Shown one piece after another: positions 3,606 to 47,350 of a stretch of 47,350 bases of DNA. A program made the translations under genes and the position numbers. The stretch lies in NCBI GenBank assembly GCA_012719345.1, contig JAAYAN010000059.1:1-47350 (forward strand), in the 5' to 3' direction. Origin of the DNA: Ignavibacteria bacterium. Lineage in GTDB: Bacteria; Bacteroidota; Ignavibacteria; Ignavibacteriales; Melioribacteraceae. The notes under the pieces are model-generated. The model did no database searches. It was not told the origin of the DNA and saw only the letters and a program-made list of their open reading frames with translations. Within the stretch, counting starts at the first letter, position 1, and every line of letters begins with the position of its first letter.

Positions 3606-5072
3606 ATGTCATCCGAAAATAAAAAACACATAAGATTCGAATGGAAACATATCCTTATAATTTTCCTGACTCTTATATTTTTTCAGATATTTGTTTATTA
3701 CTTACAGAAGAATACATTGCAGGATCTGCTTTCGGATACAATGGAATGGTATAAGCAAAATTCTGCCGAAGAGATTGGAAACCTTACTACAACTGCAATG
3801 GAGCTTTTACTGGAATCCGATCCTTTTAATGAGGACGAAATCAACGAGAATGAAACAAAAAATCTTATTCATTCTTTTAACAGCATTTTAAAACAGCCTT
3901 TAATGAAGAGGAATGTTGAAGAAATGTGTGTAATTCTTCCTTATGGGGATAAGTTTATTGCTGTGGATCTGGGAAGTGAATTATTCTCTTACTTTTACAG
4001 CCGCGAACTTGCCGATACAACATCCAATTCTGAATATATAGATGCAGTAAAACAATATGCTGCTATTCATAAAGAGATGGTGAAAACAGAACTGATTACT
4101 ACCATAAAAAAAGAGCAAAGCGTATTTATGGTTTATGTGCCTTTAGTTCCTCACGGAGAGTACAGCGGTGCGGTTTATCTTAAAATTCATCCCGATTTTA
4201 CTTTTATCAGCAATAAGATATTAGCCAGTTTCGATCATACAGTTCTCATCTTTTCATCTTTAATTCTGATGGGTTTGCTGATAGTATTTTACATTTCCAC
4301 CTATACAATAATTGAGCGGGATGAAGCCAGAGAATTGCTTTATTCAGAACGAGAAGCGCATCTTACTGAATATATTGCTCAGCAGAAAGAACATCTTTTC
4401 ACAAAAAGAATATATCACACTCATCATAAAGCCGAAAAGGTTATGGGTTTTATAAATGAGGATCTTGATAATATTGATGAAAATAATTTTCGCGATGTTA
4501 AGTACCGGATATCGAAATATGCTAATTTTATTTCGCGGGTTATTTACGATATGAAATGGTATAATCCTCCTCTGCAGACAATCCGGAACCACATTTTTCG
4601 CACAGATTTGAATGAAGTGTTGAGTTTTATAATAAATAATATTTTTTTAAGGACGAGCAGGCAGGTAAATTCTATAAAATTTAATACTGTTTTTGATGAA
4701 AATCTGCCGGTGGTTTCCATAAACGAATTTGTGGTCTGGGAAATAATAGAACCTATAATTCAAAATGCAATAGATCACTCGGATAAAGAAATAATCAATA
4801 TAAAAATACTAACAAAATATCATCCCGAAAATCATCAGTCTGTTATTATTATTGAAGATAATGGGAAAGGAATTCGCGAGGATTTGCTAGAAAAAAATGA
4901 TGCCGGAGTAATGAGAATTTTTCTGGAAAATATTTCCACAAAAGCCGAAGGGAAAAATTGCGGATACGGATGCTACCTTGCTTACGAAATAGCAAAGCGA
5001 TGCGGCTGGGAATTAAAGGCGGAAAATTCGGAAACAGGCGGCGGAAGATTTATATTACTAATCAATCATTAA
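3606..5072 (+). CDS. Sensor histidine kinase with extracytoplasmic sensor domain
   Basis: A 488-residue inner-membrane kinase. Membrane segments lie at about residues 15-33 and 212-233, enclosing an extracytoplasmic domain of about 180 residues. The cytoplasmic part has a kinase ATPase domain with an N-box (N387 in PIIQNAIDHS), a G1 box (EDNGKGI) and a G2-like GYGCYLAYEIA. The phosphoacceptor region is atypical: instead of HExRTP there is a His cluster (H271, H273, H274 in IYHTHHKAEKV), so the acceptor cannot be named with certainty. It is preceded by a binding-protein gene and followed 21 nt later by an NtrC-type regulator, its likely partner. No clear ribosome site precedes the ATG. Confidence 0.85.
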   Translation: MSSENKKHIRFEWKHILIIFLTLIFFQIFVYYLQKNTLQDLLSDTMEWYKQNSAEEIGNLTTTAMELLLESDPFNEDEINENETKNLIHSFNSILKQPLMKRNVEEMCVILPYGDKFIAVDLGSELFSYFYSRELADTTSNSEYIDAVKQYAAIHKEMVKTELITTIKKEQSVFMVYVPLVPHGEYSGAVYLKIHPDFTFISNKILASFDHTVLIFSSLILMGLLIVFYISTYTIIERDEARELLYSEREAHLTEYIAQQKEHLFTKRIYHTHHKAEKVMGFINEDLDNIDENNFRDVKYRISKYANFISRVIYDMKWYNPPLQTIRNHIFRTDLNEVLSFIINNIFLRTSRQVNSIKFNTVFDENLPVVSINEFVVWEIIEPIIQNAIDHSDKEIINIKILTKYHPENHQSVIIIEDNGKGIREDLLEKNDAGVMRIFLENISTKAEGKNCGYGCYLAYEIAKRCGWELKAENSETGGGRFILLINH

Positions 5073-14259: not shown

Positions 14260-14807
14260 AAATATATACAAAATCCGGGGATGATGGAACTACAGCACTT
14301 TTTGGCGGACAAAGAGTAGCAAAGAATGATTTAAGGATTGAATGTTACGGCACGGTTGACGAGTTGAATTCTGTTTTGGGTTTAGCGTTTTTTAAAGTCA
14401 AAAATGCTGAAATTATGAAAGTAATTAATCAGATACAAAACGACTTATTCATTTTAGGTGCCGATCTGGCAGCTCCTTCCGAAAAAAAAAATGCTAAAGT
14501 TTTAAGAATTAATCCGGATAATATTAAGGAATTAGAAAAAATTATTGATTATTTCAGCGGACAAATACCAGAATTGCGGGCATTTATTCTGCCGGGCGGA
14601 ACAGAAGGAGCTGCTTATCTTCATATTGCCAGAACAATATGCCGCAGGGCTGAAAGACTATCAGTATCTCTTTCTAATTATGTTGATATTGGTCTGAATA
14701 TTGTTATATATTTAAATCGTCTTTCTGATCTTTTTTTTATTTTAGCCCGATTTGAAAATCATTCTTGCGGATTTCCTGATAAAGAATGGAAAAATATACG
14801 GGGGTGA
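14256..14807 (+). CDS. PduO-type cob(I)alamin adenosyltransferase
   Basis: A 183-residue enzyme that transfers the adenosyl group of ATP to cob(I)alamin, making coenzyme B12. Motifs: the N-terminal KIYTKSGDDGTTALFGG, the ECYGTVDELNSVLG helix, and CRRAERLSVSL followed by YLNRLSDLFFILAR, all typical of the trimeric PduO/MMAB family. The start overlaps the YgfZ-like stop. The last two codons and stop (RG-TGA) are made from the first bases of the tmRNA acceptor stem, an overlap of 8 nt. Confidence 0.93.
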   Translation: MKIYTKSGDDGTTALFGGQRVAKNDLRIECYGTVDELNSVLGLAFFKVKNAEIMKVINQIQNDLFILGADLAAPSEKKNAKVLRINPDNIKELEKIIDYFSGQIPELRAFILPGGTEGAAYLHIARTICRRAERLSVSLSNYVDIGLNIVIYLNRLSDLFFILARFENHSCGFPDKEWKNIRG

Positions 14808-15153
14808 AATTGGCTTCGACGGGATTACTTGCTCTTTGAATTGCGCACCGTGTTCTCCGTAGACACGATAAACGACGGTAAAAAAAATTAACTGGCGAAT
14901 ATAATTACGCTTTAGCTGCTTAATAAAATTAAGCAGCCGTTCACTTCTTCTCCGCATATCGGGAACAGGATGAACGCCGACTAGGTATGATAGCCGAATT
15001 GAGTGTCTGAGTAAAAGAGGCGAAAATTTATCAGGCTGGTTATTGCAAATCATGTTAGTTTGAGTTGCTTTAACAAGATTAAAAAACTGACTATGTGCGT
15101 AGAAGTTCTCTGAACGGTTTTTTCGGACGCGGGTTCAACTCCCGCCACCTCCA
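14800..15153 (+). ncRNA. ssrA: Transfer-messenger RNA (tmRNA)
   Basis: One-piece tmRNA that rescues stalled ribosomes. The 5' end GGGGGTGAAATTGGCTTCGA and the 3' GGGTTCAACTCCCGCC T-arm are diagnostic. The acceptor stem pairs GGGGGTG (14800-14806) with CACCTCC (15146-15152, one G.U), with discriminator A15153; CCA is not encoded. The tag frame runs from the resume codon GGC (14894) to TAATAA (14921-14926) and encodes (G)EYNYALAA, a Bacteroidota-like tag. Pseudoknot-forming G/C pairs surround the frame. The first 8 nt overlap the preceding coding gene. Confidence 0.97.
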
Positions 15154-15481
15154 CTTTGAAGGCAATTAAAAATGAATAATGTATAATTAACAATTGTTGA
15201 TAAATGTTATATTCATTTTATTTATATTGTCCAGAAATTTGTAATTTATTTCTTTTCTCACATTAATTTCTCAATGATTAAAGTTAATATACTGCTGTAT
15301 GTTAATGAATTGTTGTAATCCTATACCAATTGGAAGTATTTGGCTAAATATCTTTATCCCAAAATGGTCATTTGAACAAACAATATTATGGTTTAGCTTT
15401 TATTATTGGGTATTTTGGGTAATACAGACTTATCCCTAATTAATCGGGATGTTTTTCAGGAATGTATAGATTTTGTTAGTC

Positions 15482-38542: not shown

Positions 38543-40654
38543 TTAAAGCAATCCGACTTTTTTTCGTAAAAACCATTCAGCAGAAAACAATAAAACAATT
38601 ATTGCAAGAATCCATTCGTAATTCCACAATGGAATTTCTTTGCGTTTAATTTCAGTCTTCACACCGGAATCTACAGTATTCTTAAAAATATCTTCCAAAT
38701 TTCCGGTTTCTGTTATTTTAAAATAACTTCCGCCGGTCAATTCGGCAAGTGATTTTAAAAACGCAATATCCTGTTTAAGGTTTACTTTTTCAATATCGAT
38801 TCTATTAACAATAAATTTGCCGGAAAAAGCCATTGGGCGGATACCTTGCGCATTTACTTTTGCAGTATAAGAATATTCTCCGGGGGTATTTATTATCAAA
38901 CCGCCTTCGTAAATGCCCGATTCGCTTTTAAAAAGATTAAAGCTGTTGCTGTAATCAGTCCCTTTAATTTCTATAACAATATCGGCATCTGCAACAGGTT
39001 CCATTAAATCGTTATAAATCTGTCCGCTGATAATCACTTCTTCGCCCTGAAAGAAATATTTTTTGGATGTTTCAACAAAACTTTTTGTCTTGCCCGATGC
39101 AGTAAGCCATTTAATTGAAGAGTTAATAAAATTATCGAAAATATTTTGGCTTTGGGAAGATGACTGTAATTTCCAGCGCCAGGTCTGCGCAGCAGTTACA
39201 ACAGCTCTTTTTGCCGCGCCGGTTTCATTCAATATTATCAGCGGAAAAGGGAAGTTTATATTTTTTACGGAAATTTCGGCTGGAACAATACTGCCGGGCG
39301 AAGCAGTAATTTCCGAATTTGTACGCAAAACCGGTGGAAGATTTTCCCACTCCGATACATCTTTTTCTATTGCAGATTTTATTAATGGGTGATTAGGCAT
39401 TTTAATTACAGGCTGTATCTGCGAAAAAGCGCTGTTAATTCTTTTTGCTGAAAACGGCAACAACCCTTCGAACTGATTTATCATTGTAAGGTCAAAGTTT
39501 TCGCCGAATATAAAAAGGAACGGTAATTTATTATTGGAAATATTTTGTTTAAGCAGATTTAATGTTTGCCGGTTGCTGCTTTTTGCTGGAAAATCTAAAA
39601 TAATAACAGCATCTGCCGAATCATTCATTTTGTTGAAAAAAGAAATATCCGGCGGCTGGTTTCGTATAATTTCGGTGTAAGTCCTGATATCAATATTTTT
39701 ATTCTGCTTAAGTGAATTTTTTATAAAGGATAAGTCCGATGAAGGCGAACCGGCAACCATAAATATCTTTAATTTTGAACGATCGGCAAAAATAAAAGTA
39801 TCTTTTCTGTTATTATCGAAAGTCTGTTCACCCGAAATTTTGCTAACAGATGCGGAAATCTTTTTTTCGCCCGGACTTGCAGGAAGATAGCTGGCTGAAA
39901 CCCGGTTTATGCCGTCTTTTAAAGTTGTTTCCTTACTTTCAAATAATCTGCCGTCTTCATAAAAATCAATTTTAATTTCCTGATTTTCAAATCCGTTGCT
40001 GAAAATTTCGGCGGAAATATTTGTTGCTGTTCCGGCGTAAACTGCTTCGTTATGGATTATTCTGTTAACAGTGATGTCTTTTGAAAGGGAAGTGTCGCCG
40101 AGACCGATTGTAAATACCGGAATGCCGGCTTTTTCGAAATTGCTTAACGGATTTTGCCCAGCTGTAATTATTCCGTCGCTAATAATAATTACCGATGCGG
40201 CAGGAGCATTATTTTCGCTTACTGCTTTGCTTATTTTTGAGAAATCGGTAAGAGGTTCACTGAAATCTATATCTCCGTTCAAATCTTTTACTTCTGTTCC
40301 GAAAGAATAAAATTTACTGCTTCCTGGAAGATTTTCAAGTTTTTCTTTCAGACCGTTTATCAGATTCCATTCGCTGCTTTCTTTTATTGAGGAAGACGCA
40401 TCATAGAATATCAGGTTTTCGGGCGTTTTTTCAGTTTTATCGGAAATTGAAAGCAAAGGTTCGAAGATTATGACTGTAACAAGAAAAAGCGCGGTAAATC
40501 TTAAAAAAGATAAAATAATGCGCAGGGATTTTTTTATCTGCGGAATTGTAAACCTGTAATAATAAAATGTAAAAATAAAAACTGCCGTAACAGCCGTAAG
40601 AAAAATCCAGACGCTGCCGTTCAGTGTTATTTTTATCGAATCGAAAATCTGCAT
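38543..40654 (-). CDS. Large membrane protein with degenerate vWA-like domain
   Basis: A 703-residue protein with two N-terminal membrane helices (about 15-33 and 43-65), a long extracytoplasmic part, and one helix near the C-terminus (WILAIIVLLFSAEWFL). The first soluble domain begins LIFYDASSS, like a vWA MIDAS DxSxS but without a clear full metal site, followed by SVIIISDGIITAG. Beta-sandwich regions follow. The layout resembles Bacteroidota/Ignavibacteria BatA-adjacent vWA membrane proteins and class I GATase-like proteins; the function is not known. It sits 15 nt after surE. Confidence 0.75.
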   Translation of the reverse strand: MQIFDSIKITLNGSVWIFLTAVTAVFIFTFYYYRFTIPQIKKSLRIILSFLRFTALFLVTVIIFEPLLSISDKTEKTPENLIFYDASSSIKESSEWNLINGLKEKLENLPGSSKFYSFGTEVKDLNGDIDFSEPLTDFSKISKAVSENNAPAASVIIISDGIITAGQNPLSNFEKAGIPVFTIGLGDTSLSKDITVNRIIHNEAVYAGTATNISAEIFSNGFENQEIKIDFYEDGRLFESKETTLKDGINRVSASYLPASPGEKKISASVSKISGEQTFDNNRKDTFIFADRSKLKIFMVAGSPSSDLSFIKNSLKQNKNIDIRTYTEIIRNQPPDISFFNKMNDSADAVIILDFPAKSSNRQTLNLLKQNISNNKLPFLFIFGENFDLTMINQFEGLLPFSAKRINSAFSQIQPVIKMPNHPLIKSAIEKDVSEWENLPPVLRTNSEITASPGSIVPAEISVKNINFPFPLIILNETGAAKRAVVTAAQTWRWKLQSSSQSQNIFDNFINSSIKWLTASGKTKSFVETSKKYFFQGEEVIISGQIYNDLMEPVADADIVIEIKGTDYSNSFNLFKSESGIYEGGLIINTPGEYSYTAKVNAQGIRPMAFSGKFIVNRIDIEKVNLKQDIAFLKSLAELTGGSYFKITETGNLEDIFKNTVDSGVKTEIKRKEIPLWNYEWILAIIVLLFSAEWFLRKKVGLL

Positions 40655-40669
40655 CGGAAAAAATCCTGT

Positions 40670-41434
40670 TTATCTGTTTGTTTCAATATTCCATTCTTTC
40701 ATTTTTAGGAAAGTTTTATAATCTGTTAAATCGAAATGAATGGGTGTAATGGAAACGAAATTTTTCTTTATCGCCGTCTGATCATAATCTTCCGATTCAT
40801 CAACTTCAACAAGATTGCCTTTCAGCCAGTAATAATCGTTCCCGTAAGGATCAACTCGTTTTTCGTAAATATCATCCCATTTTGCTTTGCTTTGTTTGGT
40901 GAGTTTAATTCCTTGTATTTTTTCTTTAGGAAGATCGGGAACGTTAATGTTTAGCAGGGTTCCGTTTTCAAGTCCGTATTTACAAACTTTTTGGACTGTA
41001 AGCACTGCTGTTTCGGCAGCATACGAAAAATTTTCCACCCGATGGGCGGCTACTGAAACCGCTATTGCAGGAACATCAAGAATTGCAGCTTCGCGGGCTG
41101 CGGATACAGTACCCGAGTAAATAATATTAATTGCAGTATTGGAACCGTGGTTTATTCCCGAAACAACAATATCTGGCGGGGTTTTCATAATATTCCGGAT
41201 TCCCATTTTAACGCAGTCCGCGGGAGTTCCGTCAACTGCATAGCCGAAAAATTCGCCGTTTTTATAATATTCGGTAACCCGTAAAGGTATTTTCATTGTT
41301 ATTGCGTGACCAACCGCGCTTTGCTCTGTTAAAGGCGCAACCACTGTAACTTCGCCAATTTCTTTTAAAGCTTTTACAAGTTCATAAATCCCTTTGGAAT
41401 GTATGCCGTCGTCGTTGCTTACTAATATTCTCAA
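40670..41434 (-). CDS. surE: 5'/3'-nucleotidase SurE
   Basis: A 254-residue stationary-phase survival phosphatase that dephosphorylates nucleoside monophosphates. N-terminal RILVSNDDGIHSKGI (metal-binding NDD) and GTPADCVKMGI plus SGINHGSNT are family motifs. The frame is open back to 41485, but I choose the TTG at 41434: AGGTG lies just upstream and the promoter boxes at 41462-41493 overlap the longer version. It heads the minus-strand operon with the membrane protein, hemerythrin and comF-like genes. Confidence 0.95.
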   Translation of the reverse strand: MRILVSNDDGIHSKGIYELVKALKEIGEVTVVAPLTEQSAVGHAITMKIPLRVTEYYKNGEFFGYAVDGTPADCVKMGIRNIMKTPPDIVVSGINHGSNTAINIIYSGTVSAAREAAILDVPAIAVSVAAHRVENFSYAAETAVLTVQKVCKYGLENGTLLNINVPDLPKEKIQGIKLTKQSKAKWDDIYEKRVDPYGNDYYWLKGNLVEVDESEDYDQTAIKKNFVSITPIHFDLTDYKTFLKMKEWNIETNR

Positions 41435-41461
41435 AACTTCACCTGAAATGTTTTTATGATG

Positions 41462-41493
41462 CAAATATAAGCTAATCCGGCACACCTTTCAAA
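41462..41493 (-). promoter_or_regulatory. Bacteroidota-type promoter for the surE operon
   Basis: On the minus strand, TTTG (41493-41490) is followed after 20 nt by TATATTTG (41469-41462), matching the -33/-7 promoter of Bacteroidota with ideal spacing. The transcript would start near 41455, about 20 nt before the TTG start codon. This supports the short surE start and the placement of the organism. Confidence 0.75.
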
Positions 41494-41530
41494 AAAGTTA
41501 AGCGAAATAACCGCTGATTTTGGGTTGTGG

Positions 41531-41616
41531 GTGTATTCCCTGGGGTCAGGGTCGTACCCTGACCCAAGAATAAATCTTTTTTCTGCCAGGGTGCGACCCC
41601 GGCAGCCGGGGAACAC
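41531..41616. repeat. Compact double-hairpin element
   Basis: Two adjacent hairpins sit inside a weak outer inverted repeat. The first is GGGTCAGGGT - CGT - ACCCTGACCC (41543-41565), perfect. The second is TGCC-A-GGGT - GCG - ACCC-C-GGCA (41584-41604), one mismatch. Both share CAGGGT around a 3-nt loop. The outer arms are GTGTATTCCC (41531-41540) and GGGGAACAC (41608-41616). It is GC-rich against AT-rich surroundings and is probably a dispersed REP-like element, though only one copy lies in this window. Confidence 0.7.
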
Positions 41617-41638
41617 TTATTTGAGAAAACTACTGTTT

Positions 41639-41766
41639 AGCTAACGGCTGCGGCTATATATTTTTTGCCGACTTCGTGATCTTTTTCTGTCAGCCGGAAC
41701 AAACAAAAAAAACTCAAAGTTTGCACTTTTCGGAAATAACGTTGGCTATACTGCGTGTTGTCGGTA
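41639..41766. repeat. attC-like imperfect inverted repeat A
   Basis: The left half CTAACGGCTGCGGCTATATA (41641-41660) and right half CTATACTGCGTGTTGTCGG (41746-41764) are imperfect inverse complements: AAC boxes at the outer edges, then GCGGcTATA/GCAGTATA cores. The centre is about 85 nt. The right half matches that of element C at 15 of 19 positions. It lies 7 nt past the amylase stop codon. Confidence 0.5.
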
Positions 41767-41773
41767 GTTTTTT

Positions 41774-43672
41774 TTATTTCTTATAAATTACGAATCCTGC
41801 CTTAGGAACTTTTAATAACACAACACATCTTCCGTTTACATTTTGAACCTGTATATCCATTTTTGTTGAATTGCAGGAATATAAACATCTTAATTTATCA
41901 CCTGCTTTATGGATGTTGTTGTCAATAGTTACATAAACTTCTAAGGTATTGTTTTCATCTGTATTAATGGCACACAATATTTCTTCGTTATTAAAAATTC
42001 GCGACCATGCAATTACAGAGCGGATGGTATCACCGCCTTCCGGATAGCCAAAATTAATTCCATTGCCTGATATTTCTCTTAGAAATTGTCTTCCTCTTCT
42101 TAAAGCAATTTCTTGTCTTCTAACCTGAACAATTTTGGCTGTTTCCTGATATTCATAAGTACTTTCATCAAAGAAGTGTTTGTTACGGCTTCTAAATGCA
42201 CCAAATTCACCACCAAACATAGCTTCCCGCAGGTATTTGTCACTTCCTCCTTCGCCATCGAAAGCCTGCTCAGTTCCATAATAAATGCATGGAATACCCA
42301 TTGTTGTAAGGTTTACAGCAATAGCCGGCAAAAGCAAATCTTTATTCCTGCCTCCATAGGCAGCAAAACGTAATTTTTTCGATTTGTCTTTATCATCATA
42401 ATCTTCAGTGCATATCTGATCGTGGTCGTTGAACATAATTACCACCTTATCTCTGAACCAGGTATGGGAATCTTTATTGATTAGTTCCGAATTTCGAAAT
42501 AAATTAAAATACTCTGCCGGGCAATATTTACCTTTTACAAAGCCCCTGAGTTTCGATTGAACATCATCTATTCCCAGAGCTGCATTTAATCCTGTAAGTT
42601 GTAAGGTTTCATATGCATTTTTTCTGCCTCCGGCTATCTCACCGACAAGGTAAAAATTTTCTTTGTTAATGCTTTGGGCAAACTCTTTCAAAACAGATAC
42701 AAAGTATCTTGTAGCAGGTCTTCCCATATGTTTTATCGTATCTATCCGGTAACCGTCAATATCAGCAAATGCTATCCAATATTTATAAACATCGCATAAA
42801 AACTTCAAACCATCTGATGGAATGAAGTTTTCTAAATCTTCATTGCCCAAATCAATGTCTTTTAAATCAGAGAAATCACCTTCAAGATATTCAGGATTGT
42901 GATCCCAATTGTTAATTCGTCCTTTTTGTGTAAAGGTTTGCGGATTTTGAAACTCAGACGGCCAAACGGCACCATCCGGCCATACCTGTGGATGTTGTGT
43001 TAAATCAATAGTACCAAATGGGATGCTGGATTTTCCATTTGCATCGTTATATCCATCTACCTGATAAAAACTACCATCCCAGCGAGGGTCGAGATAATAG
43101 TTTTTATTTGCATCTTCGGTCCAATATCTATCGGGATTGTAACTAAATACATTGCCGCTGTGATTTAGAATTATGTCGAGTATTACGTAAATTCCTTGTT
43201 CGTGTGCCGTTTTTACAAGCTGGTTTAAATCATCTTTACTTCCAAAATGAGCGTCGATATCGAGGAAATTTTGTATGCCATAACCATGGTATGTTTCCTG
43301 AAAGCTCACTTGCTTAAAAATAGGGCTTATCCATATTGTAGTAATTCCAAGTCTTTTTAAGTATCCTATTTTGCTTTTCAAACCATCTAAATTTCCACCC
43401 ATCCATTTTCCGCCACACTCGTTCCAAAAGTCTGCATCAGATTTATTTAAAATAGCATTTCCGTTATCAGTCACCTTGTACAAACCTGTTTTCCCTGTAT
43501 TAACTATGTTTCCAGTAATGTCTTTATAACCTTTTTCGTTGTTGTCTGAGAAACGATCAATCATTAAAAAATACAATACATTGTCTTCCCAAGCCAGCGG
43601 ACTAGGATGAAATGTTCTGTTGATCAGAGTTTTCCAATTTATGTCAGATAAACTTTTATGTTCTTTACCCAT
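41774..43672 (-). CDS. Cytoplasmic GH13 alpha-amylase-family enzyme
   Basis: A 632-residue glycoside hydrolase. The TIM-barrel regions are clear: region I DIILNHSG (H171), region II YRIDTIKHMG with nucleophile D311, region III VGEIAGG with acid/base E345, and region IV FNDHDQ with D418. A C-terminal beta domain follows (about 540-632). No signal peptide is seen, so it should act on internal alpha-glucans or maltodextrins. AGGAGGAG precedes the ATG. It is a lone gene bounded by repeats A and B, with no neighbouring carbohydrate genes, which supports lateral acquisition. Confidence 0.92.
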   Translation of the reverse strand: MGKEHKSLSDINWKTLINRTFHPSPLAWEDNVLYFLMIDRFSDNNEKGYKDITGNIVNTGKTGLYKVTDNGNAILNKSDADFWNECGGKWMGGNLDGLKSKIGYLKRLGITTIWISPIFKQVSFQETYHGYGIQNFLDIDAHFGSKDDLNQLVKTAHEQGIYVILDIILNHSGNVFSYNPDRYWTEDANKNYYLDPRWDGSFYQVDGYNDANGKSSIPFGTIDLTQHPQVWPDGAVWPSEFQNPQTFTQKGRINNWDHNPEYLEGDFSDLKDIDLGNEDLENFIPSDGLKFLCDVYKYWIAFADIDGYRIDTIKHMGRPATRYFVSVLKEFAQSINKENFYLVGEIAGGRKNAYETLQLTGLNAALGIDDVQSKLRGFVKGKYCPAEYFNLFRNSELINKDSHTWFRDKVVIMFNDHDQICTEDYDDKDKSKKLRFAAYGGRNKDLLLPAIAVNLTTMGIPCIYYGTEQAFDGEGGSDKYLREAMFGGEFGAFRSRNKHFFDESTYEYQETAKIVQVRRQEIALRRGRQFLREISGNGINFGYPEGGDTIRSVIAWSRIFNNEEILCAINTDENNTLEVYVTIDNNIHKAGDKLRCLYSCNSTKMDIQVQNVNGRCVVLLKVPKAGFVIYKK

Positions 43673-43723
43673 CTCAAACTCCTCCTAAATTTATTTTTCA
43701 ATACAGTTTCTAATTAAAATCAC

Positions 43724-43787
43724 CACCAACGTTCCGCGTGTATGTGCTGTTGCGAAGCAATGGCATATACACGCTGTTGTGCGTTCG
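43724..43787. repeat. attC-like hairpin repeat B
   Basis: A near-perfect palindrome: an 18-nt left arm (43736-43753, starting GCGTGTATGTGC) and right arm (43757-43774, ending ATACACGC) close on a GAA loop (43754-43756). All three mismatches are G.T-wobble compatible. Outside lie CAACGTT (43728-43733 region) and TGTTGTGCG (43775-43783). It fills the gap between the amylase and McrC genes. Confidence 0.55.
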
Positions 43788-43821
43788 TTCTTCTTTTCTG
43801 TCGTGCAGTTCTCCGTCCATT

Positions 43822-45093
43822 TTAGTTACTGATTACTGGTAATTTAATAGCCATTTTATAAAATCTTGTAAAGCCCCTAATCTGTTTCTCTTTTAAGTCG
43901 TCAGCTAATGTGTCAGATGCAGATTGGTCAGGATAAATAATTAAGCAGTCAATAACTTTGTCTTGCTCCTCTGCTGTTATACAACCTAATTTTGATAAAA
44001 CTTTCGTGTCTCTTGCATATCCGCTTAATTGTCTGATATCCTCTGCCTGATATTTTTCTTGCTGATATTTCCGTTTGTATTTTGTGTCAATTATCATTTT
44101 CTCAGTGTCACTTACAAAAATAAAATCGGGTTGTCCGTATGTTCCTTGAATTTGAAATTTTATGTTGTTGAAATACCTGTCTTTGAGCATGCCTAAAACA
44201 TATAGTTCAAAAAGTTTAGGCATATCAATCCAAAACGGTGGAACTTTAACAGTCTTGTTGATGAGTGTGTCAATCTCTTTAATGTTGTAACCAAACCGTT
44301 TCAATATGAGTGATGAAATATGAAGTGCTTCTTTGTATTCTTTATAAAATGCGTTGTGTTTAATTCCTTTCAATGTTTTCAATTCAATATTCTCATCAAC
44401 TTCGTAAAAAGCAGGTAGGCAATAATTTACTACTGGCGAAGCGAGTTTTGAATAGTCGGGAAATAGTGCAAGATATTTTTGAACGAAAACCAAAGTCCGT
44501 TTTAGAATTCTGTTTTCAATGCAGTTGAAACCAAATTCTTCATACTTGCAAAATGTTTTTGTCGGCTTGTTCTTAATGATATTCTGTTTTAGTGTTTGAC
44601 CAACTAAAACCTTTCCTTTGATTTTTGCATTTAAGTTGTGTTCAATCTTGTAGTAAGATTTCTTCAATCCCTTTCTAACAATGGTCTTTACTACCTGCAA
44701 AAATTGAATAACCAAAAGAGGAGTTAGCAAATCTTGTTTTTGCTCAATTTCAATAAAAGGTTCATCAAATTTTATTTCATACAAATCTTTTGTGAAGGTA
44801 GCAACATCCGAATGTCTCAGGCAAGAGAAAAGCATTTTTAGATAATCCGTTTGCTGTGAATTATCATTCAGTTTTGGTGCTACATAAACGGCAATTTTAT
44901 TTCTGTTTAGCCAATCAGTTCCGATATAAAAATTTGAATTTAGTTTTTTGCTGGTGCTGTCCTGCGTAATTTCAATGCACTTACAATCTGCCTTTTGCTT
45001 GTAAAGGATTGAAGATGCAGAAAGCATTTCCAATGAAGATATATCTTCATTGCAGTGTTCTGAAAATGCTTTATTGAAAAGTAACTTAGACAT
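43822..45093 (-). CDS. mcrC: McrC-family restriction endonuclease subunit
   Basis: A 423-residue McrC-like protein, the nuclease partner of McrB in modification-dependent (type IV) restriction. An N-terminal half (about 1-200) contacts McrB in known systems. The C-terminal PD-(D/E)xK nuclease shows E296 (LFELYVL), D323 (QPDFIF) and D336-T-K338 (IIDTKYKRK), followed by DIRQLSGYA. The start overlaps the mcrB end by 8 nt. The system is expected to cut DNA bearing modified cytosines or other marks, probably phage DNA. Confidence 0.9.
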   Translation of the reverse strand: MSKLLFNKAFSEHCNEDISSLEMLSASSILYKQKADCKCIEITQDSTSKKLNSNFYIGTDWLNRNKIAVYVAPKLNDNSQQTDYLKMLFSCLRHSDVATFTKDLYEIKFDEPFIEIEQKQDLLTPLLVIQFLQVVKTIVRKGLKKSYYKIEHNLNAKIKGKVLVGQTLKQNIIKNKPTKTFCKYEEFGFNCIENRILKRTLVFVQKYLALFPDYSKLASPVVNYCLPAFYEVDENIELKTLKGIKHNAFYKEYKEALHISSLILKRFGYNIKEIDTLINKTVKVPPFWIDMPKLFELYVLGMLKDRYFNNIKFQIQGTYGQPDFIFVSDTEKMIIDTKYKRKYQQEKYQAEDIRQLSGYARDTKVLSKLGCITAEEQDKVIDCLIIYPDQSASDTLADDLKEKQIRGFTRFYKMAIKLPVISN

Positions 45094-46930
45094 TTAATAT
45101 TTCAATTATGTCGTTGGCAGTTTCTAAAAATATACCGTCTTTCAAATACTCTCGAAGTATTGGCTTTATTTCAAATTCCAATTTTATTTTCAGCTCATCT
45201 TCGTCTTTTACAATAAAATAACTGTGTCCAATCATCACATCTTTAGCTTTGAAGTCTGGCGAAAGAAATTCGTTACCGAACAGTGCTTTTATTTCATTGA
45301 ACAATTTTTTTGCAAACGGATTTTGAATGACATTTTCGTCTGGTAAAATGTCTACAAATGCAAACCTTCGTCTTATTGCATAGTCAATATGCCCAACAGA
45401 ACGGTCTGCCGTATTCATTGTGCCAATGATGTAAAGATTTTTGGGCAATGTTATCTCTCTTTCGCCTTCAAATTCATACATTGAAGTTACAGCCTCATTT
45501 CTGTATTCTAATGCGTAAATAAGTTCGCCTAAAACAGAAGGCAAGTTTGCTCTATTTATTTCGTCTATTATTAAAACGTAATTTCCATTTGGGTTGTCAG
45601 TTGCTTTTTGTGCAAAATCGGCTAAAACTTTATTTTCAACTTGGTAGGAAACGCTACCACCTTCTGTTGTATCGGCAACAATTCCTCTAACAAAGTCTTC
45701 ATAAGAGTATGCTGGATGAAATTGTATAATTTCATATTCGCCACTTGCCACAGCATCATTATTATCAACAATGTTTTCTCCTGTTTTTAAATTGAAATTT
45801 TCCCAAAGCAGTTTCCCAAATTCATAGCTTGTCAACTGAACATTTAAACGCTTTTTCTTTTCAATGTAAACTTGATTTAGCTTTTGATTTTTTTCAAAAA
45901 CATTCAATCCTTGATAATTTACTTTGAAAATTTTAAGAGCATTGTCAATCATTTTCTCACTATTGATTGGGAAATACTCATCAGGGTAGTAGCTATTAAG
46001 TAGCTTTAGCAAAAAGCTATCGCCAAAATATTGATTTGAATTGTCTAAGTTTTTAGAATTAATAACTTCAGAAAGAAACTCTGCTACTTTTTTCATTGCT
46101 TCGTTATTATCTTCGATCTCTTTTACAAAGCCGTGTTTACTATAATCTTCTATAGCCTTTTTCCAATAGATTAAATACGACCTTGCACTGCCGGGAGAAT
46201 AAGAGCCAAGTAATTTTAAACCTGTCTCAATCCACCAACAAAAATTATCTCTATCGCCCCTGCCTGCACAGTAATTCTCTAAAGTAAGCTTATCAATGTT
46301 TTCTTTTGGAAACAGTTCGTAAAATTTGGAAAGCAGTTTCTCTCTACTTTCTCTTGTTGACTTTACAACTTCATCATTGGTGTTGAAGTTTTTAATTAAT
46401 TTATCAATTATACTTTCTGGATTTCCAACTATACGAGGTTTTGTAAGTTCACTTGCTATTAATTTTGCCTGTCTTGTTTTACCTGTCCCTGGAGGGCCTT
46501 GTAAAATGATTTGGTTTTTGTATTTGAGTAAGTCAATTATCATCTCTCTGTTTCCTTTTTCGATTATGCGTTGAGTAAATTCTAACATTTCATCATCTCT
46601 TAAAGGTTCGATTGTCTTTCTGTAGGAGATGCCATCAAAGTCTTTTGGTAGCTCAGCAAGGTCAAACCATTTTACTCTAAAGTAATGATTGCTATCCTTG
46701 TTGATTACTTTCCCGACTCCTTTAAGTTTTGTAAATGTTATTGAGTGATTTACTCCTTTTGTCGAACTTGATTTCATTAAAATCATGTCACCAATTTTAA
46801 CTTCCTTTAATGTGTCTTTGTTTCTATCATCTCCGTCCTCTGCATAACCGTCATACCAAATTCCTTGGTCTAAAAAGTCCTTTGATACATCTGTGTTTCC
46901 GTGTGCTGCTCCTACTGCCCAATATTTCAT
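45086..46930 (-). CDS. mcrB: McrB-family GTPase with N-terminal EVE-like domain
   Basis: A 614-residue McrB-like AAA+ GTPase. Residues 1-110 look like an EVE/PUA-type modified-base reader (MKYWAVGAAHG, KIGDMILMK, GVGKV). The motor domain has Walker A GPPGTGKT (145-152), Walker B VLIIDEINRAN (452-462) and the McrB GTPase signature MNTADRSVGHID (505-516). A helical insertion of about 200 residues (185-395, with YYPDEYFPINSEKM) separates Walker A from the rest. AAAGGA precedes the ATG. It pairs with the overlapping mcrC gene to form a two-gene restriction system bounded by repeats B and C. Confidence 0.9.
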   Translation of the reverse strand: MKYWAVGAAHGNTDVSKDFLDQGIWYDGYAEDGDDRNKDTLKEVKIGDMILMKSSSTKGVNHSITFTKLKGVGKVINKDSNHYFRVKWFDLAELPKDFDGISYRKTIEPLRDDEMLEFTQRIIEKGNREMIIDLLKYKNQIILQGPPGTGKTRQAKLIASELTKPRIVGNPESIIDKLIKNFNTNDEVVKSTRESREKLLSKFYELFPKENIDKLTLENYCAGRGDRDNFCWWIETGLKLLGSYSPGSARSYLIYWKKAIEDYSKHGFVKEIEDNNEAMKKVAEFLSEVINSKNLDNSNQYFGDSFLLKLLNSYYPDEYFPINSEKMIDNALKIFKVNYQGLNVFEKNQKLNQVYIEKKKRLNVQLTSYEFGKLLWENFNLKTGENIVDNNDAVASGEYEIIQFHPAYSYEDFVRGIVADTTEGGSVSYQVENKVLADFAQKATDNPNGNYVLIIDEINRANLPSVLGELIYALEYRNEAVTSMYEFEGEREITLPKNLYIIGTMNTADRSVGHIDYAIRRRFAFVDILPDENVIQNPFAKKLFNEIKALFGNEFLSPDFKAKDVMIGHSYFIVKDEDELKIKLEFEIKPILREYLKDGIFLETANDIIEILNV

Positions 46931-46994
46931 TTAATATCCTTTGTATTTTGGTTTCGACTTTCAATTTAATGGTTGCACGGTCTTCAATAGAATG

Positions 46995-47130
46995 ACGCAC
47001 AACGGGCGGCGGTATGGTTAGTTGCCGATTTCGAAGCACTTCCCTGTCAAGTTACAACTACTTTTGATACGGGTTGAGACGCTTGAATACGCACTGCACC
47101 GGCAATTAACTATACCGCATGTTAGCGGCT
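46995..47130. repeat. attC-like imperfect inverted repeat C
   Basis: The left arm GCGGTATGGTTAGTTGCCG (47009-47027) and right arm CGGCAATTAACTATACCGC (47100-47118) pair over 19 bp; the two differences are G.T-wobble compatible. The outer boxes are CGCACAAC (46996-47003) and GTTAGCGG (47121-47128), 5-6 nt and 2 nt from the arms. The 72-nt centre has no gene. The layout of outer AAC/GTT boxes, spacer, inner stem and variable centre is that of an integron attC site, though the boxes depart from the consensus GTTRRRY. Confidence 0.55.
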
Positions 47131-47165
47131 GGTGATGTTAAATGATAATTTTTTCTTGCAATTTA

Positions 47166-47198
47166 TTTGTTTTTATCATTTTTTATTTATTATCTTTG
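47166..47198 (+). promoter_or_regulatory. Bacteroidota-type promoter for the PadR-like gene
   Basis: TTTG (47166-47169), a 21-nt gap and TATCTTTG (47191-47198) match the Bacteroidota -33/-7 pattern. It lies 36 nt before the start codon, so the leader is short. Confidence 0.75.
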
Positions 47199-47234
47199 TA
47201 CTATACTTTTTGTTTAATACAATATGCTTAATAT

Positions 47235-47350
47235 ATGAATGAAGGAAATCAATTAAATGAACTATTATCAGCATGGGAAGAGACATATAAAAAAGGTCAA
47301 CTTACCCTTTGGGTTTTCCTGGCTTTGAAAGATGGGAAAAAATATGTTGA
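47235..47350 (+). CDS. PadR-family transcriptional regulator, 5' part only
   Basis: Only the first ~38 codons are in the window. The segment AWEETYKKGQLTLWVFLAL matches the winged-helix start of PadR regulators, where Y-K-K-G-x-L-T precedes the first helix-turn-helix helix. Members repress efflux or stress genes in response to small molecules. It is divergent from mcrB across repeat C. The target cannot be seen. Confidence 0.6.
   Translation, partial: MNEGNQLNELLSAWEETYKKGQLTLWVFLALKDGKKYV

Follow-up and report, generated by a model that had tools for sequence, protein, structure and literature searches.

In sedentary chromosomal integrons, the integrase (IntI, model TIGR02249) lies beside an attI site and same-orientation arrays of gene cassettes; array pieces without an integrase are called CALINs (clusters of attC sites lacking integron integrases). 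Their sites have AAC...GTT boxes, unpaired spacers, a folded bottom strand, and an R'' box complementary to the start of their own cassette. Integron theory regards the I2 helix as exclusive to IntI and as a requirement for cassette capture and for single-strand recombination (PMC7790495). An "integron-like" subgroup of simple tyrosine recombinases is also described; the insertion is called essential for integron function, and no sites or cassettes appear to be linked there to members without it (PMC8138268). A census found a complete integron in Bacteroidetes proper only in Salinibacter (PMC9024848). Here we analyzed a 47,350-nucleotide stretch from an Ignavibacteria bacterium (GCA_012719345.1, contig JAAYAN010000059.1; hereafter the window), which is the whole of contig C49 in an assembly of 4.02 Mb in 323 contigs. 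Three attC-like elements in it, A, B, and C, border an amylase gene and an mcrBC gene pair. These elements very probably serve cassette recombination in an integron-like platform that has an integrase without I2. A search of the open PubMed Central literature found no description of such a system, although absence there is not proof.

We built a covariance model, R1, from 12 elements of the palindrome scan described below, site C among them, and trained it on the bottom strand. A search of all 47,350 bases with R1 gave exactly three matches, and these are the three attC-like elements that an earlier note on this DNA had pointed out (Table 1). Sites A and B were outside the training set. Site B had an E value of 1.6e-9; site A had an E value of 0.0097 over the whole window and of 0.0014 when only positions 40600 to 47350 were scored without filters. 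Sites B and C form long stems on the plus strand, which is their bottom strand. The bottom-strand fold of B beat 200 of 200 shuffles (z of -3.4), and C had a palindrome score of 16.9 versus a window background of up to about 11.6. The fold of A was no better than its own shuffles. In the register of R1, site B is short and measures 51 nt from AAC to GTT versus the usual 122 to 124 nt. A first palindrome scan, which penalized unpaired spacers, overlooked A and B, and an Rfam search gave no match at A, B, or C.

Along the minus strand, site C is followed by the McrBC genes, site B, the amylase gene, site A, and surE, with sites and genes on the same strand. The earlier note had the amylase gene and the McrBC pair each bounded by repeats. 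This was right, but the reading direction had to be corrected to the minus strand, where the GTT cores form the cassette borders. The McrBC cassette begins with GTTGTGCGT, and the R'' box of its own site B is complementary to this start at 6 of 6 positions. The start of the amylase cassette and the R'' box of A are complementary at 4 of 6. The contig ends 221 bases past site C, and the sequence further upstream lies outside this assembly piece.

A pattern search led to contig C224 of the same genome, where a 278-aa tyrosine recombinase (C224:8016-8852) adjoins a run of small genes, each closed by a similar element. Named by eye, these genes include frames that resemble a lipoprotein and an acetyltransferase, among others. 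Across the genome, a simple half-site pattern did no better than its reversed control, except for a few true sites. In the recombinase, the conserved Arg, His-Arg, His, and Tyr are in place, and a C-terminal KSPxD is shared with IntI. In an alignment, it lacks the stretch of about 43 residues that holds I2 in IntI. Model TIGR02249 scores it at 214 bits, below the cut-off of 265, and the match falls into two pieces that leave out the insert. The closest solved structure by sequence, IntI4 (2a3v), also aligned in two pieces around the I2 stretch. An AlphaFold2 model has no extra helix at the I2 position, with residues 253 to 269 poorly predicted. In a structure comparison, Xer and IntI chains scored about equally. 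A quick tree, from which archaeal XerA was left out, joined the recombinase and IntI in one clade against 15 Xer rows, with a Shimodaira-Hasegawa-like approximate likelihood ratio test (SH-aLRT) value of 100; the branch with array-bearing recombinases had an SH-aLRT of 85. The enzyme thus falls with IntI, like the "integron-like" subgroup, and outside the clade of the housekeeping XerC and XerD proteins of its own genome and relatives. The earlier note had stated that no integrase is present. This is true of the window but not of the genome, which encodes the cognate recombinase on C224 and, on contig C69, an ordinary IntI.

The design of the sites came from a strand-neutral scan for palindromes near 20 relatives of the recombinase, in which both strands were scored equally. 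The element is usually 122 to 126 nt long and consists of an R'' box, a left spacer, a stem, a loop, the returning stem, a right spacer, and GTT. In the commonest register, about 2 nt on the left and about 5 nt on the right are unpaired. Among 105 elements, 96 have the AAC and GTT ends, and 84 measure 122 to 124 nt. The R''-L''-L'-R' box arrangement of integrons, with AAC/GTT cores and unpaired spacers, is therefore present. As the earlier note had remarked, the boxes do not follow the classic GTTRRRY of integrons; the cores are GTTAGCGG, GTTGTGCG, and others.

The stem itself differs from that of IntI-type sites. In 96 aligned sites, it has 16 pairs and no bulge, with 1082 Watson-Crick pairs, and extrahelical bases are absent, in keeping with the missing I2 of the recombinase. 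In contrast, the IntI-type sites of related genomes have an extra, bulged base at stem positions 7 and 14. Wobbles in the 96 stems number 183 on the bottom strand versus 17 on the top strand, and they are concentrated about 10 and 15 nt after the AAC. There are thus two conserved bottom-strand G.T wobbles near where ordinary IntI sites have their extrahelical bases. Training R1 on the bottom strand could favor wobbles, but the strand-neutral first scan gives the same asymmetry. Across 86 aligned sites, we counted 480 double changes versus 152 in shuffled data, and they occurred in 18 of the 20 stem pairs. Pairing held in 90.9% of cells, versus 64% when shuffled and 30 to 50% when slid, in an alignment that was fitted to the model. 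The wobble bias and the stem covariation together indicate selection on the folded bottom strand and not on the duplex sequence.

The units between the sites behave as integron cassettes. Both sites share one orientation in all 71 neighboring pairs, and the cassette strand holds the longest frame in 65 of 67 cassettes, which are mostly single-gene and have a median length of 920 bases. The cassette start agrees with its own site's R'' box at a mean of 4.99 of 6 positions, perfectly in 40 of 70, compared with 2.35 for shuffled pairs (maximum of 2.91 in 2000) and 2.47 for the next cassette. The arrays therefore run in one orientation, with each cassette's own R'' box matching its own start, as in integrons. 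The cassette arithmetic is that of integrons: each excised unit contains the full box pair. BLAST found homologous cassettes across genera. Most of these border at one end only, so that tet(X), described below, is the cleaner case of transfer.

Sites and recombinase occur together. In the phylum, sites were found in 100 of 115 genomes with the recombinase versus 85 of 280 without it (Fisher P = 4e-26). The arrays lie directly beside the recombinase, on either side, and nearly all sites point away from it. Between gene and array there is a further GTT, and in 38 of 52 loci (one locus counted twice) its next six bases match the R'' box of the first site at 6 of 6 positions. This GTT is about 80 to 135 bp from the gene in 29 of those 38 loci. 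The bases directly before it are kept within groups, for example TATATAAACAA or CCTGCTATATACAAT..GTATAGCGGGAT. By position and sequence, this conserved boundary near the recombinase corresponds to the attI of integrons, and we call it attI-like. A plasmid of Chryseobacterium sp. SNU WT5 (L284) carries a recombinase, an attI-like site, and five R1 sites, with several cores followed by the same palindromic stretch, GTTGGGAAAAATCGCC.

The earlier note had suggested a search of related genomes. At the level of the order, 94 of 164 genomes had R1 sites; for the phylum, we found hundreds of them in 185 of 395 (47%) sampled genomes, in contrast to the census cited above. The best 20 or 8 candidates were scored per genome, so that counts are lower bounds: at least 73 sites in Flavobacterium enshiense DK69, at least 56 in Polaribacter vadi, at least 17 in a Calditrichota bacterium, and at least 2 in the gammaproteobacterium Marinicella pacifica. 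The last has a recombinase with an adjoining R1 site (L178:9178-9312), a possible transfer out of Bacteroidota. The note had reasoned that gene order and repeats fixed in all relatives, or half-sites without variable genes between them, would speak against a cassette system. Instead, the elements bound cassettes, and the gene content between them varies.

A plasmid search with the recombinase identified, next to tet(X3) of Acinetobacter, a recombinase of 48.7% identity. Between the two genes lies an attI-like site that ends in GTTATGTGCC. In plasmids of Empedobacter, Bacteroides fragilis, and Riemerella, tet(X) is followed by an R1-type site (51 to 53 bits) whose R'' box, GGCACATAAC, is the complement of the GTTATGTGCC start. 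The sequence of the three tet(X) plasmids is the same across the site until the last bases ahead of the GTT and diverges from there. Ahead of the GTT at the tet(X) start, Acinetobacter, Empedobacter, and Bacteroides differ completely. At tet(X4) of Escherichia coli, only the start of the site is left, followed by ISVsa3. From these alignments, tet(X) appears to be a cassette of the R1 system, with differing flanks and breakpoints that fall at the GTT core. Eight R1-type sites, all in one orientation, lie on a resistance plasmid of Riemerella, and six of its seven cassettes match at 6 of 6 positions. The lnu(H) gene in Empedobacter also has an R1-type site and a 6-of-6 start match. Several genes on natural plasmids (L285 and L287 to L291; NZ_CP104735.1, NZ_CP040909.1, NZ_CP054002.1, NZ_CP072192.1, and NZ_CP037911.1) resemble R1-system cassettes: tet(X), lnu(H), and, judged from position, estT, erm(F), and blaOXA.

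Published work treats the xerD/tpnF gene beside tet(X3) as XerD or as a recombinase of unknown role (PMC7473080, PMC7722449, PMC7494873). Its identity to the R1-system enzyme and the attI-like site followed by tet(X3) instead liken it to that enzyme. For tet(X14), no adjacent integron was reported, and whether XerD mobilizes tet(X) was asked (PMC7473080). The R1 system offers an enzyme and a site for this open question. In an experiment with Riemerella anatipestifer, aph(3')-IVb entered the chromosome independently of homology (PMC13148043, 2026). The insert comprised the gene, 27 bp of preceding sequence, and a tail of 140 bp that folds like attC; the authors likened the event to lnu(H) and left mechanism and enzyme open. 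The R1 system again offers a candidate enzyme and site, and the likeness runs through the R1-type site and start match of lnu(H).

We propose that the I2-less recombinase would cut G^TT at the folded bottom strand of a site and insert cassettes at attI or at another site, in both respects as IntI does. The wobble bias and the tet(X) breakpoints speak indirectly for such recombination at G^TT of the single bottom strand. Strand choice may be set by the two conserved G.T wobbles instead of by extrahelical bases read by the I2 helix. On this reading, the window holds a CALIN, an array piece without an integrase, with an amylase cassette and an McrBC defense cassette. Several points weigh against this proposal. 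Recombination at R1-type sites is here inferred from sequence. Site A is the weakest of the three, and its inner stem is damaged. Some cassettes match their R'' box at only 0 to 2 of 6 positions. The recombinase of the host genome sits on a separate contig of the 323-contig assembly. Sites occur without a detected recombinase in 85 genomes (fragmented assemblies, pseudogenes, or another enzyme), and 15 genomes with the recombinase have no detected site. An ordinary IntI also lies on a contig with R1-type sites in another genome, about 7 kb from one of them (G089:C81; L168:16573-17535), where cross-use is possible.

Could the sites instead be ordinary attC sites served by the host's own IntI, with only their sequence divergence being new? 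The genome does encode such an enzyme (424.9 bits with TIGR02249), and 18 of 24 order-level genomes with IntI have R1 sites. However, R1 is nearly silent at IntI loci: as a control for its specificity, a scan of 22 such loci (366 kb) gave two weak matches and one near-threshold match (E of 0.72). The sites there are of the bulged type, and arrays of R1 sites set in right beside the I2-less recombinase with its attI-like site. We rejected this reading as very unlikely. A more serious, though still improbable, alternative is dif-like double-stranded recombination by the I2-less recombinase or by host XerCD, with the hairpin being incidental. Duplex DNA is the normal substrate of I2-less recombinases of this family, there are inverted repeats in the attI-like sites, and in NCBIfam the enzyme just passes the cut-off of the XerA/integron-integrase model. 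Against this stand the wobble asymmetry and the covariation over the stem pairs. That the repeats are passive, as terminators, repetitive extragenic palindromic (REP)-like repeats, or debris, is hardly credible. They are palindromic and intergenic, and A is degenerate, but this reading is contradicted by the match of cassette starts to their R'' boxes, the single orientation of the sites, the attI-like boundary, the linkage to the recombinase, and the position of the tet(X) breakpoints at the core. Chance palindromes were also rejected.

The integron-like platform with an I2-less integrase works like an integron but lacks both I2 and extrahelical bases. It is therefore a new class or variant and not a member of the IntI type. 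The earlier note's proposal of an undescribed Bacteroidota/Ignavibacteria-type cassette system for metabolic and defense genes fits the cassette arithmetic, the arrays in many genomes, and the recombinase with its attI-like site. Transfer breakpoints at the GTT core were seen for tet(X), another member; for the amylase and McrBC cassettes, we infer mobility. With less assurance, we consider it probable that this is a phylum-wide integron class that recombines single strands without the I2 helix or extrahelical bases, having solved strand choice independently or in an ancestral manner, and that it is the native vehicle that exports tet(X) and other resistance genes of Flavobacteriales. A sister group of IntI without I2, beside attI-like sites and arrays, makes the claimed requirement for I2 testable.

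Table 1. Sites and cargo genes of the cassette segment in the window
Feature	Position	Strand	Evidence and remarks
Site A, attC-like, terminal site of the amylase cassette	41637..41765	-	R'' GACAAC, core GTTAGC; inner stem degenerate; R1 18.7 bits
Amylase-family gene (632 aa), cargo between B and A	41774..43672	-	PF00128, E 4e-45; orientation as the site
Site B, attC-like, short form, own site of the McrBC cassette	43722..43784	-	R1 44.9 bits; fold versus shuffles
mcrC-like gene (423 aa), cargo between C and B	43822..45093	-	PF10117, E 1.2e-30
mcrB-like AAA-domain gene (614 aa), cargo between C and B	45086..46930	-	PF07728, E 2.6e-18
Site C, attC-like, upstream border of the McrBC cassette, full-length (123 nt AAC to GTT)	46995..47129	-	R1 119.5 bits, partly by construction (training member); palindrome score

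The IntI on C69 (L056, G000) has cassettes of its own, with sites of the GTTATACC type that contain extrahelical bases, so that two cassette systems are present in one genome. An intergenic hairpin, GTCAGGGTCGTACCCTGACCC..GGCAGCCGGGG, adjoins site A at positions 41538 to 41611 of the window, and a look-alike is found near the IntI on C69 (L056, about 4180 to 4250). A transfer-messenger RNA (tmRNA) gene lies at positions 14800 to 15156 of the window (Rfam RF00023).
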